Shown here in pieces: positions 9,923 through 56,177 of a stretch of 64,000 nucleotides of DNA. The position numbers and the translations under genes are program-made. Within the stretch, counting starts at the first letter, position 1; every line of letters begins with the position of its first letter. This stretch comes from Thermoanaerobaculia bacterium (lineage in GTDB: Bacteria; Acidobacteriota; Thermoanaerobaculia; Gp7-AA8): the NCBI GenBank assembly GCA_017883205.1, contig JADGNZ010000003.1, positions 124,001 through 188,000 on the forward strand, in the 5' to 3' direction. The notes beneath the pieces were generated by a model. It was not told where the DNA came from. It searched no databases and saw only the letters and a program-made list of their open reading frames with translations.

Positions 9923-10165
9923 CTATTTCTGCTGCTCTATCTCGCGGAGTATGTCCGAGGCTTCCGCGCCCAGGACCTTGGCGAGTAGGAAGACCGTGTC
10001 GAGGGTGGGCGAGTTCTCTCCCCGCTCGATGAAGCCAAGGTAGGTTGGGTTCATTGCCGCTTTGCGACCGAATTCCACGAGCGTCCACTGCCGCTCCGCA
10101 CGAAGGCGGCGGATGATGGCACCGAAGTTGACGGCGTATCTGCTGATTGTCCTGCGTCGCGGCAT
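9923..10165 (-). CDS. Xre-family HTH regulator (80 aa)
   Basis: A compact single-domain helix-turn-helix protein: FGAIIRRLRAERQWTLVEFG, NPTYLGFIERGENSPTLDTV and a final LLAKVLGAEASDILREIEQQK helix. The recognition helix holds NPTYLGFIERG. It has no extra domain, as in small phage- or TA-type repressors. It lies alone beside the 42-bp tandem array at 10209-10545 with no obvious partner gene. Confidence 0.85.
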   Translation of the reverse strand: MPRRRTISRYAVNFGAIIRRLRAERQWTLVEFGRKAAMNPTYLGFIERGENSPTLDTVFLLAKVLGAEASDILREIEQQK

Positions 10166-10208: not shown

Positions 10209-10545
10209 ATGTGTCCATGGCCATTGCCCGAGACACGTCTGTCTCCTTACAAGTGTCGATGACTCAGTTGATTAGGAGGCGCGAGTCTCACTCAAGTGTC
10301 CATGGCTCATTTGACTTCGACGGCGAGTCGCTCTCAAGTGTCCATGGCTCATTTGACTTCGACGGCGAGTCGTTCTCAAGTGTCCATGGCTCGTTTAACT
10401 TCGACGGCGAGTCGTTCTCAAGTGTCCATGGCTGATTTCGCTATGACACGTGAGTCCTTCTCAATGGCAATGGCTCATTCGGACGACCCTCGTGTCCATC
10501 TCAAACGGCCACGGCTCGTTTGATTACGACCAGCGAGTCACTCGC
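10209..10545. repeat. 42-bp tandem repeat array
   Basis: About eight units. Those starting at 10293, 10335, 10377 and 10419 are nearly identical (core GTCCATGGCTCATTTGACTT, then CGACGGCGAGTCG); flanking units are increasingly degenerate on both sides. The exact period is 42 bp, twice the 21-bp period of the other arrays in this window. Open frames across it encode repeated peptides in more than one frame, and units decay without frame selection, so I read it as non-coding. The 500 bp between 10166 and 10666 contain only this and the next repeat. Confidence 0.85.
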
Positions 10546-13336: not shown

Positions 13337-13651
13337 CCGGGAACTGCAGTGTTTGAACCGTCGGGCCGTATTTCCCACCCGCCCAAGCTGTGTCTCACAC
13401 CATCGATGACTGTCTCTAACCCTCGAGGCCGTTGTTTTGAACCATCGACGGCGGGCGTCGAGCCATCGACCGTGACTTTTGATCCGCCGACGGTGCTTTT
13501 TGATCCATCGACGGTACGTTTCGATCCATCGATGGTTCGTTTTGATCCAACGACGGTTCGTTTTGAGCCAACGATGGTTCGTTTTGAGCCAACGACGGTT
13601 CGTTTTGATCCATCGATGGTTCGTTTTGATCCGTCTCGGCCTCAGCTTAGG
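13337..13651. repeat. 21-bp tandem repeat array A
   Basis: About 15 consecutive units of exactly 21 bp, each beginning CCATCG, CCAACG, CCGTCG or similar and ending TTTTGAT/TTTTGAG; the best conserved begin at 13505, 13526, 13547, 13568, 13589 and 13610 (CGATGGTTCGTTTTG core). Units decay leftward. Frames are open on both strands because 21 is a multiple of three, but the leftmost units are too degenerate for protein-level selection. It fills most of the 650-bp gap 13262-13912. Confidence 0.85.
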
Positions 13652-13912: not shown

Positions 13913-14149
13913 TTAGCGCTTCCGCTCGATCTCCTCGATCAACTCGCCCAACGAAACGCCCAACGCCCGCGCTAACCCAGCCAACACCAGCAGACCGGGA
14001 TTCCGAACGCCGCGCTCGATATCGCTGATGTAATTCCGCGACAGTCCGCATGCCTCGGCCAATTCTTCCTGACTGAGTCCGCGTTGCTTCCGAAGACTGC
14101 GGACTGATCGCCCGAAGGTCTTCAGCAACTTTGCGGCGGCGACTTGCAT
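13913..14149 (-). CDS. Xre-family HTH regulator (78 aa)
   Basis: A single HTH_3 domain: FGRSVRSLRKQRGLSQEELA, CGLSRNYISDIERGVRNPGL and LARALGVSLGELIEEIERKR. It is divergent from the ribbon-helix-helix gene, with an inverted repeat between them (14166-14195) that is a likely operator. The protein resembles the other small repressors at 21031 and 9923, suggesting one expanding family in accessory regions. Confidence 0.88.
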   Translation of the reverse strand: MQVAAAKLLKTFGRSVRSLRKQRGLSQEELAEACGLSRNYISDIERGVRNPGLLVLAGLARALGVSLGELIEEIERKR

Positions 14150-16939: not shown

Positions 16940-17122
16940 CCATCGACGGTGCTTTTTGATCCAACGATGGTTCGTTTTGATCCAACGATGGTGCTTTTTG
17001 AACCATCAACGGTTCTTTTCGGCCATCGATGGTTCTTTTTGATCCGTCGATGGTTCTTTTCGGCCGTCCATGGTTCTTTTCGGCCATCGATGGTTCTTTT
17101 CGGCCATCGACGGTGCTTTTTG
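16940..17122. repeat. 20/21-bp tandem repeat array B, left part
   Basis: Nine units starting at 16940, 16961, 16982, 17003, 17023, 17044, 17064, 17084 and 17104, each beginning CCATCG, CCAACG or CCGTC and ending CTTTTTGAT or CTTTTCGG. The unit family is the same as array A. The last unit is cut at 17122 by the mobile element; its continuation is at 21957. Confidence 0.85.
17115..17122. repeat. Target-site duplication, left copy
   Basis: GCTTTTTG lies immediately outside the left inverted repeat and is repeated exactly at 21949-21956 outside the right one. Eight base pairs agrees with the 8-9 bp duplications made by IS1-family transposases. Confidence 0.85.
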
Positions 17123-21030: not shown

Positions 21031-21258
21031 CTACTTCCGTTTGTCAAATGGCCGGAAGAGTTCCGATGGCGACACGTTCAATCCCTCGGCGAGCTTGACG
21101 ATGTTATCGAAGCACGGATTCCGGCGACCGCGTTCTACGTCGCCGACGTAGTTCGGATTCAACCCGGCCAGCTCCGCGAGCTTCTTCTGCGAGAGTCCGC
21201 GTTTCTCGCGCAACTCCAGAAGATGCGCCGCAAACTTCTCGATCGGGCGGACTGCCAT
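21031..21258 (-). CDS. Xre-family HTH regulator (75 aa, element cargo)
   Basis: A single Xre domain: FAAHLLELREKRGLSQKKLA, LNPNYVGDVERGRRNPCFDN and IVKLAEGLNVSPSELFRPF. It is divergent from the HTH gene at 21315; its ATG lies inside the first of three 15-bp direct repeats (21256-21270). It is probably the repressor that reads those repeats. Confidence 0.88.
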   Translation of the reverse strand: MAVRPIEKFAAHLLELREKRGLSQKKLAELAGLNPNYVGDVERGRRNPCFDNIVKLAEGLNVSPSELFRPFDKRK

Positions 21259-45368: not shown

Positions 45369-45486
45369 TTGGGTGTGGGGAGTAGGGAGTGGGGAGTGGG
45401 AGGCCGGAGCACGGTCTACGACTCCTGGTCTCAGTCCCCACACCCCACACCCGACTCCCCACTCCCCACTCCCCACTCCCCACAGG
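45369..45486. repeat. Inverted intergenic repeat, GGGGAGTGG type (copy 3)
   Basis: Arms GTGGGGAGTAGGGAGTGGGG (45375) and CCCACTCCCCACTCCCC (about 45458-45482) around a 50-bp loop, inside the operon between ATPase and permease genes. Confidence 0.6.
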
Positions 45487-52456: not shown

Positions 52457-53248
52457 CTGGACTCGCTTCGCACTCTCTACCGATACCGCCAACTCATCGC
52501 TGCGCTCACGGCGCGCGATCTGAAGGCGCGTTACCGCGGCTCGATCCTCGGTTTCTTCTGGTCGCTGGCCAATCCGCTTCTGCTGCTCGCTGTCTACACG
52601 ATCGTCTTCACATTCTTCTTCCCGTCGAATCTCATCCATCCGTATCCGTTGTTTCTCTTCGCCGGGATCTTGCCGTGGACCTTTTTCTCCGCCGCAGTTC
52701 TCGAGTCGACGTCGTCGATCTCCTCGAACGCGGGGCTGATCAAGAAGGTGATGTTCCCCGCCGAAGCGCTGCCGCTGGTGACGGTGGCATCGCATCTCGT
52801 GCATTTCATACTTGCCATGCCCGTCCTGCTTCTCGCCACCCTCGGCTTCGCGCTTCACGGCGACATCACCATCACCATGACGATCCTGCTCGTGCCCGTC
52901 CTGATGATCCTGCAGACGCTCTTCGTCGCCGGCATCGCCATGACCGTCTCGTCCGCGTCGGTGCTCTTCCGCGATTTGCGCGACATCCTGACGAACCTGA
53001 TGCAGCTAGGCTTCTTCGTCACGCCGATCCTCTACCTGGTCGACCGCGTCCAATCACGTCCGCTACGCGCGCTGCTGCGGCTGAATCCGATGACGCCATT
53101 CGTCGTCTCGTACCAGGACGTGCTGTTCTTCGGTCACCTCCCAGGGATCTGGGACGCGCTTCTGATGCTTGCGTATGCGCTCGCCTCGATGGCGATGGGC
53201 GTGATTGTGTTCGGAAGACTCCGGGATACGCTGGCGGAGGCGATATGA
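52457..53248 (+). CDS. Polysaccharide ABC exporter permease (Wzm/TagG-like), start unclear
   Basis: The frame encodes DSLRTLYRYRQLIAALTARD, LKARYRGSILGFFWSLANP and six membrane helices ending FGRLRDTLAEAI, typical of ABC-2 polysaccharide/O-antigen permeases (263 aa from CTG 52457). No ATG, GTG or TTG lies between the in-frame TAA at 52442 and TTG 52649, which would cut off the family N-terminus and first helix. CTG is therefore the likely start, or the true start was lost with the duplication just upstream. The stop overlaps the ATPase ATG. Confidence 0.72.
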   Translation: MDSLRTLYRYRQLIAALTARDLKARYRGSILGFFWSLANPLLLLAVYTIVFTFFFPSNLIHPYPLFLFAGILPWTFFSAAVLESTSSISSNAGLIKKVMFPAEALPLVTVASHLVHFILAMPVLLLATLGFALHGDITITMTILLVPVLMILQTLFVAGIAMTVSSASVLFRDLRDILTNLMQLGFFVTPILYLVDRVQSRPLRALLRLNPMTPFVVSYQDVLFFGHLPGIWDALLMLAYALASMAMGVIVFGRLRDTLAEAI

Positions 53249-54594
53249 GCGACTACGCCATCGCCCTGACCAACGTCTCCAAGTCCTACCGACTCTGGGG
53301 ACGCGGATCGCAATTCGCCACGCTCAAGAGTGCGCTGCTGAAACGCGATCTGGCGCTCACGCCGGAAACAAGCGTGGAGGCGGTGCGCGATGTCTCGTTT
53401 GCAGTCGATCGCGGCGAGGCCTTCGGCATCATCGGCCGCAACGGTTCCGGCAAGTCGACGCTGCTCAAGCTCATCTCCGGAATCCTGAAGCCGACCAGCG
53501 GGAGCGTGCGCGTCAATGGTCGCGTCGCCGCGCTGATCGAGCTCGGCGCGGGCTTCCATCCCGAGATCACCGGCCGCGAGAACATCTACATCAACGGCAT
53601 CATGCTCGGCCTCTCGCGCCGCGAGATCGAGGCGCGCTTCGATCAGATCGTCGCGTTCTCCGGTATCCCCGAGTTCATCGATCAACCGGTCAAAACCTAC
53701 TCCTCGGGGATGTACGTCCGCCTCGGGTTCGCCGTCGCCGTTCACGTCGATCCCGACGTGCTGTTGATCGACGAGGTGCTCTCCGTCGGCGACGAAGAGT
53801 TCTCCGCCAAGTGCGTGGCCAAGATCCAGGAGATGAAGTACCGCGGCGTGACGCTCGTCTTCGTCACGCACCAGCTCGATCAGGTGCGCAATCTCTGCGA
53901 CCGCGCGCTCTGGATCGATCACGGCGAACCGGAGACGATCGGCGATCCCGTTCGCGTTGTCGACGCCTACCTACAAGCCGTTTCGTCGACCCAAACGGCG
54001 CCGGCGCGCGTCTCCACTGACGACGTGAAGACTCCAATCGCCGACACGCCGCGCGACGATGCCGGCGAAGAAGAGCGCTGGGGATCCGGCGAGGTCGTCC
54101 TCTCGCGCGTCGTCCTCGTCGACAGCCGCGGCGACGAGCTCGTGGCCCTCGGCCCCGGCACACCCGTCTCGATCGAGATGGACGTCACCGTGCGCGTGCC
54201 GCAGGACGATTTCGTCTTCGGCGTCGGCATCTACCACGCCGACGGGACATGTGTGTACGGGACGAACACCGACCTGGAAGGCTTGATGCCGGAGCGCATC
54301 GAAACGAATGGGCGCGTCCGCTTCGTCATGCCCGCACTCGATCTCGTCGCCGGAACCTACCGCATCGACGCCGCCGTCCACACCCGCAACGGCCGCGCCT
54401 TCGACTACCGCCGCGGTGTCATCCGCTTCGTCGCCGGCTCACGAGTACACGATATCGGCGTCTATCGTCCCAAGCATCACTGGAAGTTCGAAGGCGGCAT
54501 CGCCTTCCGCGAGATCGACCTGGAGCAGCGCAACGTGCCGGTGGAAGTGGCGGAGGCGATGCGGGAGGCGCGGAAGCCGAGGGGGAAGGTCTAG
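53245..54594 (+). CDS. Polysaccharide ABC exporter ATPase with substrate-binding C-terminus (Wzt-like)
   Basis: A 449-aa protein from ATG 53245 (overlap ATGA). NBD: Walker A IIGRNGSGKSTLLKLISGIL (about 64-83), ENIYINGIMLGLSRREIEA, signature KTYSSGMYVRLGFAVAVHVD, Walker B DVLLIDEVLSVGD. Residues about 290-440 form a beta-sandwich like Wzt C-terminal domains (VFGVGIYHADGTCVYGTNTD), which recognise the glycan's end. With the permease it exports an O-antigen-like polysaccharide. The longer frame that begins at 52390 is an artefact. Confidence 0.87.
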   Translation: MSDYAIALTNVSKSYRLWGRGSQFATLKSALLKRDLALTPETSVEAVRDVSFAVDRGEAFGIIGRNGSGKSTLLKLISGILKPTSGSVRVNGRVAALIELGAGFHPEITGRENIYINGIMLGLSRREIEARFDQIVAFSGIPEFIDQPVKTYSSGMYVRLGFAVAVHVDPDVLLIDEVLSVGDEEFSAKCVAKIQEMKYRGVTLVFVTHQLDQVRNLCDRALWIDHGEPETIGDPVRVVDAYLQAVSSTQTAPARVSTDDVKTPIADTPRDDAGEEERWGSGEVVLSRVVLVDSRGDELVALGPGTPVSIEMDVTVRVPQDDFVFGVGIYHADGTCVYGTNTDLEGLMPERIETNGRVRFVMPALDLVAGTYRIDAAVHTRNGRAFDYRRGVIRFVAGSRVHDIGVYRPKHHWKFEGGIAFREIDLEQRNVPVEVAEAMREARKPRGKV

Positions 54595-54599
54595 TAGTG

Positions 54600-55130
54600 C
54601 GGACTCGAGGGTTTACCGTGCGGACCTGAGGGTTTACCGTGCGAACCCGAGGGTTTACCGTGCGGACCCGAAGGTTTACCGTGCGAACCCGAGGGTTTTC
54701 CATGCGAACCCTTGGGTATTCTGTGCGGACCCGGAGGGTTTACCGTGCGGACCTGAGGGTTTTCCATGTGGACCCTTGGGTATTCTGTGCAGACCCGGAG
54801 GGTTTACCGTGCGGACCTGAGGGTTTACCGTGCGAACCCGAGGGTTTACCGTGCGGACCCGAAGGTTTACCGTGCGAACCCGAAGGTTTACCGTGCGAAC
54901 CCGAGGGTTTACCGTGCGAACCCGAGGGTTTACCGTGCGAACCCGAAGGTTTACCGTGCGAACTCGAGGGTTTACCGTGCGAACCCGAGGGTTTACCGCG
55001 CGAACCCGAGGGTTTACCGTGCGAACCCGAGGGTTTACCGTGCAAACCCGAGGGTTTACCGTGCAAACCCGAGGGTTTTCCATGCGAACCCTTGGGTATT
55101 CTGTGCGGACCGGAGGTCTCACCGCGCGGA
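54600..55130. repeat. 21-bp tandem repeat array C
   Basis: About 24 units of 21 bp with core GAGGGTTTACCGTGCGAACC, differing mainly in GAGGG/GAAGG and GAACCC/GGACCT. Three variant blocks read TTTTCCATGCGAACCCTTGG or TTTTCCATGTGGACC and then GTATTCTGTGC (near 54690, 54758 and 55072), giving a higher-order structure of unit blocks closed by the variant. Frames are open on both strands. It fills the 750-bp gap between the exporter and the glycosyltransferase genes. Confidence 0.88.
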
Positions 55131-55340
55131 CTGGACGATTCTCCACCACATGTGCCGGTTCACCGGGTGATCACTCGATCTCGCCGCTGTCGAGCATCGC
55201 CGTGGCCGCCAGGCACGTTCGAACGATTAGCCTGCATTTCTCTCGTTCTTATCGCAGACCTCATTTCAATCGAGACTTCCAGGGAAAATGAAAGAGCTAC
55301 AACAAGGGTGTGTTCGAGATTGTAGCCCGACGACAACCGC

Positions 55341-56177
55341 CTACCCCTTCACCCACGGCAACTCCCACCGCCCTTCACCTTCATCGAGTTTCGGCAACGG
55401 GACCGGCTTGCCCATGCGCTTGAGCTGCGTCAGTTCCCACAGCTTCGCGTACTTCCAGAACGTGTAATAGACGTGCATGCCGACGGAGATCAGGCCGCGG
55501 GTGCCGTCGAGGAAGCCGAGGTTGAGGATGAAGTCGCGGACGAACTTGGCGATGGGATGGCCGAGGATGCCGAGCAGATTCGTCGACTTGCCGTCGATGA
55601 ACATTTGTGCGGCGCCCCAGTTCGCGTAGCGTGTCATCTTGGCGATCATGTGATCGAAGGTGCGGATGTAGTAATGGTCCATCTTCTGCGTCAGCCGGCC
55701 GGTAGTTCCGTCGACGACGAGGTCTGCGTGGACGCGTTTGTTCGGGTAGCGGGCGTGACCGCGATGAAAGAGACGCGTTACGCGGTCGCGCTGCAGGCCG
55801 GAGTATCGAACTGGCTTGCCGAACATGAAGTTGAGACGGCCGACCGAATACGCCCATTTGTCGAGCGGGCCGTTAAGCGTGCGCAGGATCTCGTCGCGAA
55901 GTTTCGGAGTCACCCGCTCGTCGGCATCAATCACGAAGATCCAGTCGTGCGCGGCGCGATCGATAGCGTAGTTCTTCGCTGATGCGGCGCCGAGGTATTC
56001 GCGCTGCTCGATGCGAACCGCAGGAAAGCGCTCGCGAACGAGCTCCACGGTGCCATCGGTCGAAAAGGAATCGAGCAGGTAGATCTCGTCAGCCCACGAC
56101 ACCGAGCGGAGGCAATCCTCGATGAAGGCGGTTTCATCGAGGGTGTGGATGATGACGGTGACGGGCGCGCGCGGCAT
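55341..56177 (-). CDS. Glycosyltransferase family 2 (WaaE/KdtX-like)
   Basis: A 278-aa protein from ATG 56175-56177 (MPRAPVTVIIHTLDETAFIE). GT-A motifs: TVIIHTLDE, EIYLLDSFSTDGTVEL and the DxD-type VIDADERVTPKL (about 94-105), plus KNYAIDRAAHDWIF. The C-terminus contains two hydrophobic segments that may associate with the membrane. It resembles lipopolysaccharide core glucosyltransferases of the WaaE/KdtX type. Convergent to the exporter genes, with which it is likely to share a glycan pathway. Confidence 0.85.
   Translation of the reverse strand: MPRAPVTVIIHTLDETAFIEDCLRSVSWADEIYLLDSFSTDGTVELVRERFPAVRIEQREYLGAASAKNYAIDRAAHDWIFVIDADERVTPKLRDEILRTLNGPLDKWAYSVGRLNFMFGKPVRYSGLQRDRVTRLFHRGHARYPNKRVHADLVVDGTTGRLTQKMDHYYIRTFDHMIAKMTRYANWGAAQMFIDGKSTNLLGILGHPIAKFVRDFILNLGFLDGTRGLISVGMHVYYTFWKYAKLWELTQLKRMGKPVPLPKLDEGEGRWELPWVKG

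Follow-up and report, generated by a model that had tools for sequence, protein, structure and literature searches.

A 21-bp tandem array between wzt and glycosyltransferase genes is one of many arrays with a two-helical-turn period in a Thermoanaerobaculia genome

The tandem array named array C, found in the window (the whole stretch of 64,000 nucleotides analysed here), is one copy of a species-specific family lying inside a large class of "21-bp phased arrays." Judged from their sequences, the arrays of this class probably serve small DNA-binding proteins as rows of binding sites, placed on the same face of the DNA two helical turns apart, and we extend this reading by analogy to array C. 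The period, the restriction to a lineage, the dispersal of array C together with the tail, the linkage to genes, the phase of the motif in the XRE family, and the dyad constraint in many families are established. Two-turn phasing of sites is mostly examined in single operators or single plasmid origins; in this bacterial lineage, it extends over the whole genome, with more than 30 motif families.

The analysis by TRF gave array C a period of 21 bp, 24.7 copies, 85% matches, 0% indels, and a score of 700, in agreement with the roughly 24 units counted in a sequence-only reading of this DNA. That reading had placed the array at 54600-55130; the array is real, its limits were corrected to 54597-55116, and the homologous element to which it belongs reaches ~55312 because it includes a unique tail (Table 1). 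The parse into unit types was AAAABCABCAAAAAAAAAAAAABCA, where A is GAGGGTTTACCGTGCGRACCC, B is the TTTTCCATG unit (21 bp), and C is the GTATTCTGTGC unit (22 bp), with steps of 21 or 22 bp throughout. The closing variant that had been noticed three times is a block made of two units, the B-C dimer. A chance origin is excluded, since a third-order Markov null of 1.2 Mb yielded 0 windows at the same threshold. The array starts 2 bp past the stop codon of wzt and ends 225 bp short of the end of the convergent GT2 gene, filling the gap between these two genes. Its unit showed no significant dyad, no symmetric conservation profile, and no significant folding relative to shuffled units, and reading frames are open through it. 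No match to the array was found among plasmids or phages, and an origin from either was rejected. CRISPR arrays are defined by unique spacers between repeats; array C has no spacers and consists of contiguous 21-bp units.

Table 1. Coordinates of the features in the window
Feature	Position	Strand	Description	Evidence
Array C	54597-55116	+	24.7 units of 21 bp, core GAGGGTTTACCGTGCGRACCC	TRF, unit parse
Array C, first B-C dimer	54691-54733	+	21 + 22 bp	Unit parse
Array C, second B-C dimer	54755-54797	+		Unit parse
Array C, third B-C dimer	55071-55112	+		Unit parse
Element common to the array C locus (C31) and contig C2	54595-55312	+	Array C and unique tail	blastn, 85% over 742 alignment columns
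Unique tail of the array C element	55117-55312	+	~200 bp	
Wzt-type O-antigen ABC transporter ATPase	53245-54594	+	Upstream neighbour of array C	Pfam ABC_tran + Wzt_C
Family 2 glycosyltransferase (GT2)	55341-56177	-	Convergent neighbour of array C	Pfam
F3 array	10250-10479	+	42/84-bp period	TRF, motif search
80-aa XRE/HTH_3 protein gene	9926-10165	-	F3 array 85 bp upstream	
Array A	13434-13632	+	Family F2 (TTTTGATCCATCGATGGTTCG)	TRF
Array B	16940-17122	+	Family F2	TRF

The unit of array C defines family F1, found at the array C locus (contig C31) and on contigs C2, C23, C44, C68, and C16, i.e., at five or six loci in all (C68 and C16 have contig breaks at arrays); it was absent from all 60 relatives, which include two members of the same genus. 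At the four F1 loci containing B, every B unit (15 of 15) is succeeded by C, so the F1 copies derive from one ancestral array of several units. The copies on C31 and C2 are homologous over ~718 bp with sharp boundaries (TAGTGCGGACTCGA ... CAACAAGGGTGTG), and their unique tails are 92% identical. Elsewhere in the genome, the tail has one near-complete copy, that on C2, and a 63-bp piece on C103; F1 copies other than those on C31 and C2 lack it. It contains no family gene and no Rfam match, and its being a remnant of a gene of the 190-aa family described below, or of the 5' region of such a gene, was rejected, since there was no similarity. In relatives with the same wzt and GT2 neighbours, the gap between these genes is 27 to 82 bp. 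The nearest relative at this locus (G001, identical to locus L115 over 3.8 kb) has unrelated sequence there and no array, and the orthologous site of G002 has no array either. A 3.8-kb stretch of G001 is identical to JAFAOU01 (isolate CP_BM_ER_20).

The sharp ends of the 718-bp element on C31 and C2 and the absence of the array from the relatives' site fit non-autonomous mobile elements, in which array and tail would have been transposed and a transposase, or else the 190-aa protein, would recognise the array as an end. One-sided tails are common within families F1, F3, F4, and F10 (flank comparison), and the 190-aa gene has at least 49 copies, some of them broken. We regard such elements as unlikely, however, because the C31 copy has no target-site duplication, the other F1 copies lack the tail, and no known transposase family or fold was found for the 190-aa protein. 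Nor did Y1/REP transposase counts show a clear correlation with the arrays in the four genomes counted (15 in G000, 9 in G002, and 1 in G009, all three array-rich, and 8 in the array-poor G001), which makes a link between the two doubtful.

The period of array C recurs across the genome. The density was sampled over 1.2 Mb (19%) of the 6.37-Mb genome of the soil bacterium itself (G000), where 69 of the 96 arrays of at least 60 bp had periods of 21 bp or multiples. Repeats at lags 16 to 26 in intergenic DNA (274 kb, predicted from gene calls by a home-made Markov scorer) fell at 21 in 87.6% of the cases, at 22 in 8.9%, and at 20 in 2.9%; none was at 18, 19, 23, or 25. The sequence-only reading, which was to fall if other arrays mostly had different periods, holds on this point. 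Repeats at these lags numbered zero in Escherichia coli (150 kb), in Paenibacillus (83 kb), and in the 1.2-Mb Markov null. About 60 of the 63 merged arrays of the sample were intergenic, and extrapolation gives ~300 arrays for the whole genome. No description of 21-bp arrays in the class Thermoanaerobaculia was found in the literature. The genome is placed in this class, of the Acidobacteriota, through its named relatives. All the genomes compared are metagenome-assembled or likely so; among them, G002 (same genus) and G009 (another genus) have array densities similar to that of G000, while in 310 kb of G001 (same genus) TRF detected 0 arrays, and a single weak island was seen. The counts of G010 and G018 are low and confounded by 7-bp repeats. 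Copy numbers also vary within one family, as F5 has 2 or 3 arrays in G000, ~12 in G002, and 2 in G009.

A period of 21 bp keeps the reading frame, so that the arrays could be coding repeats specifying heptapeptides, and many frames are open through arrays, that of array C included. This is hardly conceivable as an explanation, since periods of 18 and 24 are nearly absent while 22 and 43 occur, no frame is open through 8 of 46 arrays, and consensuses with open frames are just slightly above shuffled units. The positions of the arrays bear on a different account, that of neutral or selfish minisatellites, in which a slippage or copying process favouring two helical turns would make the repeats, flanks would carry them passively, and no protein would be bound. 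Arrays are present in convergent, divergent, and tandem gaps in proportion to length, with no preference among them, which led us to reject a bias of gene orientation indicating a terminator or promoter role. Regular chromosomal spacing, as in a topological-domain idea, was rejected too (CV of 0.78 versus 0.88 to 0.90 for random gaps; P = 0.17 to 0.21), as was a common function of the large genes nearest to the arrays, none being found. The proportionality to gap length, the irregular spacing, the lack of a linked gene at most arrays (array C included), and the duplication with tails and higher-order B-C blocks, which fit recombination, all agree with minisatellites. We still hold them to be rather improbable, for three reasons developed below: the conservation is concentrated on symmetric positions, the phase of the TGTCCATGG motif is kept where the intervening DNA has diverged, and the 190-aa gene family co-occurs with arrays and lies downstream of them.

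The more than 30 array families are mostly unrelated: apart from a few related pairs (F1 and F22, 16/21 identities; F9 and F28, 18/21), most consensuses resemble each other no more than shuffled sequences do. The sequence-only reading had found array C unrelated to arrays A and B, which holds at the detectable level in the consensus comparison, and had preferred a shared cause to common ancestry. This preference is only partly right: A and B form one family, C has distant relatives in the genome (F22), copies within a family clearly share ancestry, and a unit of 21 bases is too short to rule out an older common origin. As for the cause, helical phasing or a common expansion process had been proposed. 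Phasing is upheld for one family, F3, and a purely mutational expansion is insufficient because it leaves the conserved motif phase and the linked genes unexplained.

The phase is best seen in F3. Its core, TGTCCATGG, occurs in the window at 10297, 10339, 10381, and 10423, and also at 10212; the 1.2-Mb sample has 24 copies, all within four clusters, and the whole genome has 66, distributed over seven clusters and scattered singles, whereas the reversed control gave 16. Measured from centre to centre, the motif spacings in six arrays from two genomes were 21, 42, 43, 63, 84, 85, 86, 106, 148, and 170 bp, with a vector strength R of 0.985 at 21.25 bp. This lattice of ~21.2 bp is kept even where the DNA between motifs has diverged, as predicted by a row of protein sites on the same face. 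The array lies upstream of the 80-aa XRE gene in the window, and the same layout is found for the C3 paralogue and the C8 homologue of G002. The C5 paralogue, 51% identical, has an otherwise different upstream array, yet it carries a TGTCCATGG cluster. The 80-aa XRE proteins of the window, C3, and G002 C8 are under purifying selection (dN/dS of 0.16 to 0.23). F3 arrays hold five to eight exact motif copies over several hundred base pairs, and there are distant stand-alone arrays. The TGTCCATGG cluster on C2 (L049) is too diverged for TRF, and on C88 a lone TGTCCATGG precedes another XRE homologue by ~30 bp. The densest TGTCCATGGACA cluster of G000, at C11:87738-88255, has 15 strand matches with spacings of 63/64 and 84/85 bp; no XRE homologue was found beside it. 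Two more XRE-type HTH open reading frames (ORFs) are present in the window, at 13916-14119 and 21034-21234 (minus strand), ~31 to 34% identical to the F3 one; array A lies ~280 bp downstream of the former.

Many units are palindromic (e.g., TAGTTC-N7-GAACTA and AGATC-N2-GATCT), with conserved arms and variable loops. Dyad-symmetric sites were found in families F2, F7, F10, F12, F14, and G2h, and not in array C. The conservation profile was symmetric about the palindrome axis in 19 families (combined P = 6e-5 after base-type control) and in the 8 strong-dyad families (P = 2e-4), P values that are not fully independent across families. About a third of the unit consensuses folded better than shuffled units, as would be expected of structured RNA, in which transcripts of the arrays would act as rows of RNA hairpins. 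The excess was the same on both strands, however, the folding of array C was not significant, no Rfam match exceeded the threshold, and within-family covariation was absent except weakly in F10, so that compensatory changes in the dyads were rejected; we therefore find structured RNA very unlikely. Symmetric conservation, the lack of covariation, and the equality of strands fit a DNA operator for dimeric proteins better than an RNA hairpin.

The shared tails of two families contain genes, encoding the 80-aa XRE/HTH_3 protein in one case and a protein of ~190 aa in the other. Copies of the 190-aa family number at least 49 in G000, at least 49 in G002, 29 in G009, 9 in G001, and 2 in G016, with one marginal match and 0 in 55 others, and the copy number tracks array density. 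An array was found within 600 bp upstream of 8 of the 11 members sampled, compared with 5% of all genes, a proportion that is partly circular, as five seeds were found by looking beside arrays. Among the members found regardless of arrays (n = 8, two in G002), the count was 5 of 8 (P ~ 1.5e-5 from the 5% background). The nearest array was on the upstream side in 11/11 sampled members. The family had no significant match in Pfam, NCBIfam, PHROGs, or PDB sequences, nor in plasmids or phages. Its predicted structure is a helical bundle with a disordered, proline-rich linker (pLDDT of ~90 over residues 1 to 135), for which fold searches gave no credible match (Foldseek best E of 3.1; VIA Z of at most 5.6 over 51 residues). 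Its dN/dS is 0.18 to 0.56. Three tandem 190-aa paralogues lie downstream of one array (L046 18193-19998 and L047 1314-2012, corresponding to C2:38235-42009).

Taken as rows of binding sites, putative sites two helical turns apart would put the bound molecules on one face of the helix and allow cooperative binding, and arrays just upstream of the gene of their own protein may serve autoregulation. Many arrays, array C included, would be stand-alone copies, spread by duplication of the array with flanking DNA and reshuffled by unequal recombination, and could be further sites or leftovers. A broader and more tentative possibility is a chromosomal system, previously undescribed, of dozens of paralogous small proteins (the 190-aa helical family, with at least 49 copies, and XRE), each paired with a separate, diverging family of arrays phased at two turns. 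A genome would hold hundreds of such arrays, and the system would evolve fast within one genus and perhaps organise or mark the chromosome through cooperative same-face nucleoprotein arrays.

Array C may be read as a binding-site array by its class only. Phased operator arrays have a motif at multiples of the helical repeat, an adjacent regulator gene, and a dyad-symmetric site in the unit. F3 shows the first two, the regulator being XRE, and array C has steps of 21/22 bp. By analogy, array C may work like the phased operator arrays of an adjacent DNA-binding protein; it is not classed as one because its neighbours are wzt and GT2 and no regulator gene is adjacent. Against a binding-site reading of array C stand the lack of a dyad in its own unit and of an adjoining DNA-binding gene, as well as the arrays' lack of preference for promoter gaps and of a common function among neighbours. 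Likewise, no DNA-binding gene adjoins the C2 or C23 copies. An ORF for an 84-aa RHH (VapB-like) protein is found 240 bp downstream of the C44 copy (L011 10790-11041, plus strand), an orphan antitoxin ORF without obvious VapC, and it is the sole nearby candidate for a partner protein of array C.

Plasmid iterons (P1, F, pSC101, R6K, and RK2) are direct repeats of ~20 to 22 bp, two helical turns apart, bound by a protein encoded nearby. The arrays described here resemble them in repeat length and two-turn spacing. A replicon, however, has a single iteron array and a gene for its replication initiator, whereas here there are ~300 chromosomal arrays with more than 30 sequences. An iteron origin is defined by an adjacent Rep initiator gene and a replication origin, and array C has no initiator beside it, being flanked by wzt and GT2. 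In partition centromeres (ParR/parC and omega2/parS of pSM19035), a small DNA-binding protein assembles cooperatively on tandem sites that precede its gene; the likeness is in the tandem sites upstream of a small-protein gene, but no ParA/ParM-type motor gene was seen beside arrays, and each genome has many motif families. XRE/Cro-CI autoregulators share with F3 a small HTH protein and palindromic sites upstream of its own gene and have several operators, while F3 differs by its phased exact motif copies and its distant stand-alone arrays. REP/BIME palindromes with RAYT transposases are also dispersed, intergenic, and clustered; the arrays here differ in period, in their many motif families, and in the lack of a clear correlation with the number of Y1 transposases. 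The repeats of Borg archaeal elements are perfect, A-rich units of variable length, about half of them in ORFs, with only 14 to 38% of the intergenic unit lengths divisible by three (PMC9879509). Pervasive tandem repeats at many loci, independent sequences, and assembly breaks at arrays are common to both (PMC9879509), whereas the units here match one another at ~85%, keep to 21 bp, and lie in intergenic DNA of the chromosome, unlike the perfect units of variable length that define the Borg type (PMC9879509).

The scarcity of arrays and of 190-aa copies in G001, of the same genus, makes the cause of the phasing testable by comparison. The 190-aa family has no counterpart in curated libraries, numbers dozens of copies, and is linked by position to the DNA that it probably targets; ready-made sets of this sort, in which the co-divergence of binding proteins and their sites can be studied, are rare.

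Other repeats were observed in these genomes. Several arrays have close to them, on one side or the other, a dispersed element of 43 to 66 bp with 92 to 97% identity (flanks of L010 9154 and L051 19117, and right flank of L040 15761). Runs of 7-bp repeats (TCCCCAC, CAGAGAT, CCCCGAC, AGTGAAG, and GGATGAA), which resemble cyanobacterial STRR heptamers, occur in the window (45435-45483), at L052 4205-4264 and L027 12349-12430, and in L118, L119, and L124; in relatives, they often stand between convergent genes as inverted pairs, which would fold into long hairpins. Coding repeats of 147 bp at L016 10607-12198, whose translation has FG-GAP-like DFNGDGK motifs, are a multiple of 21 bp and genic, and they were left out of the array counts. 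Finally, L086 8878-17789 (G002) carries tandem repeats of 100 to 131 bp with a palindrome of the CCTGACGG...CGTCAGGA type, unrelated to the 21-bp arrays.
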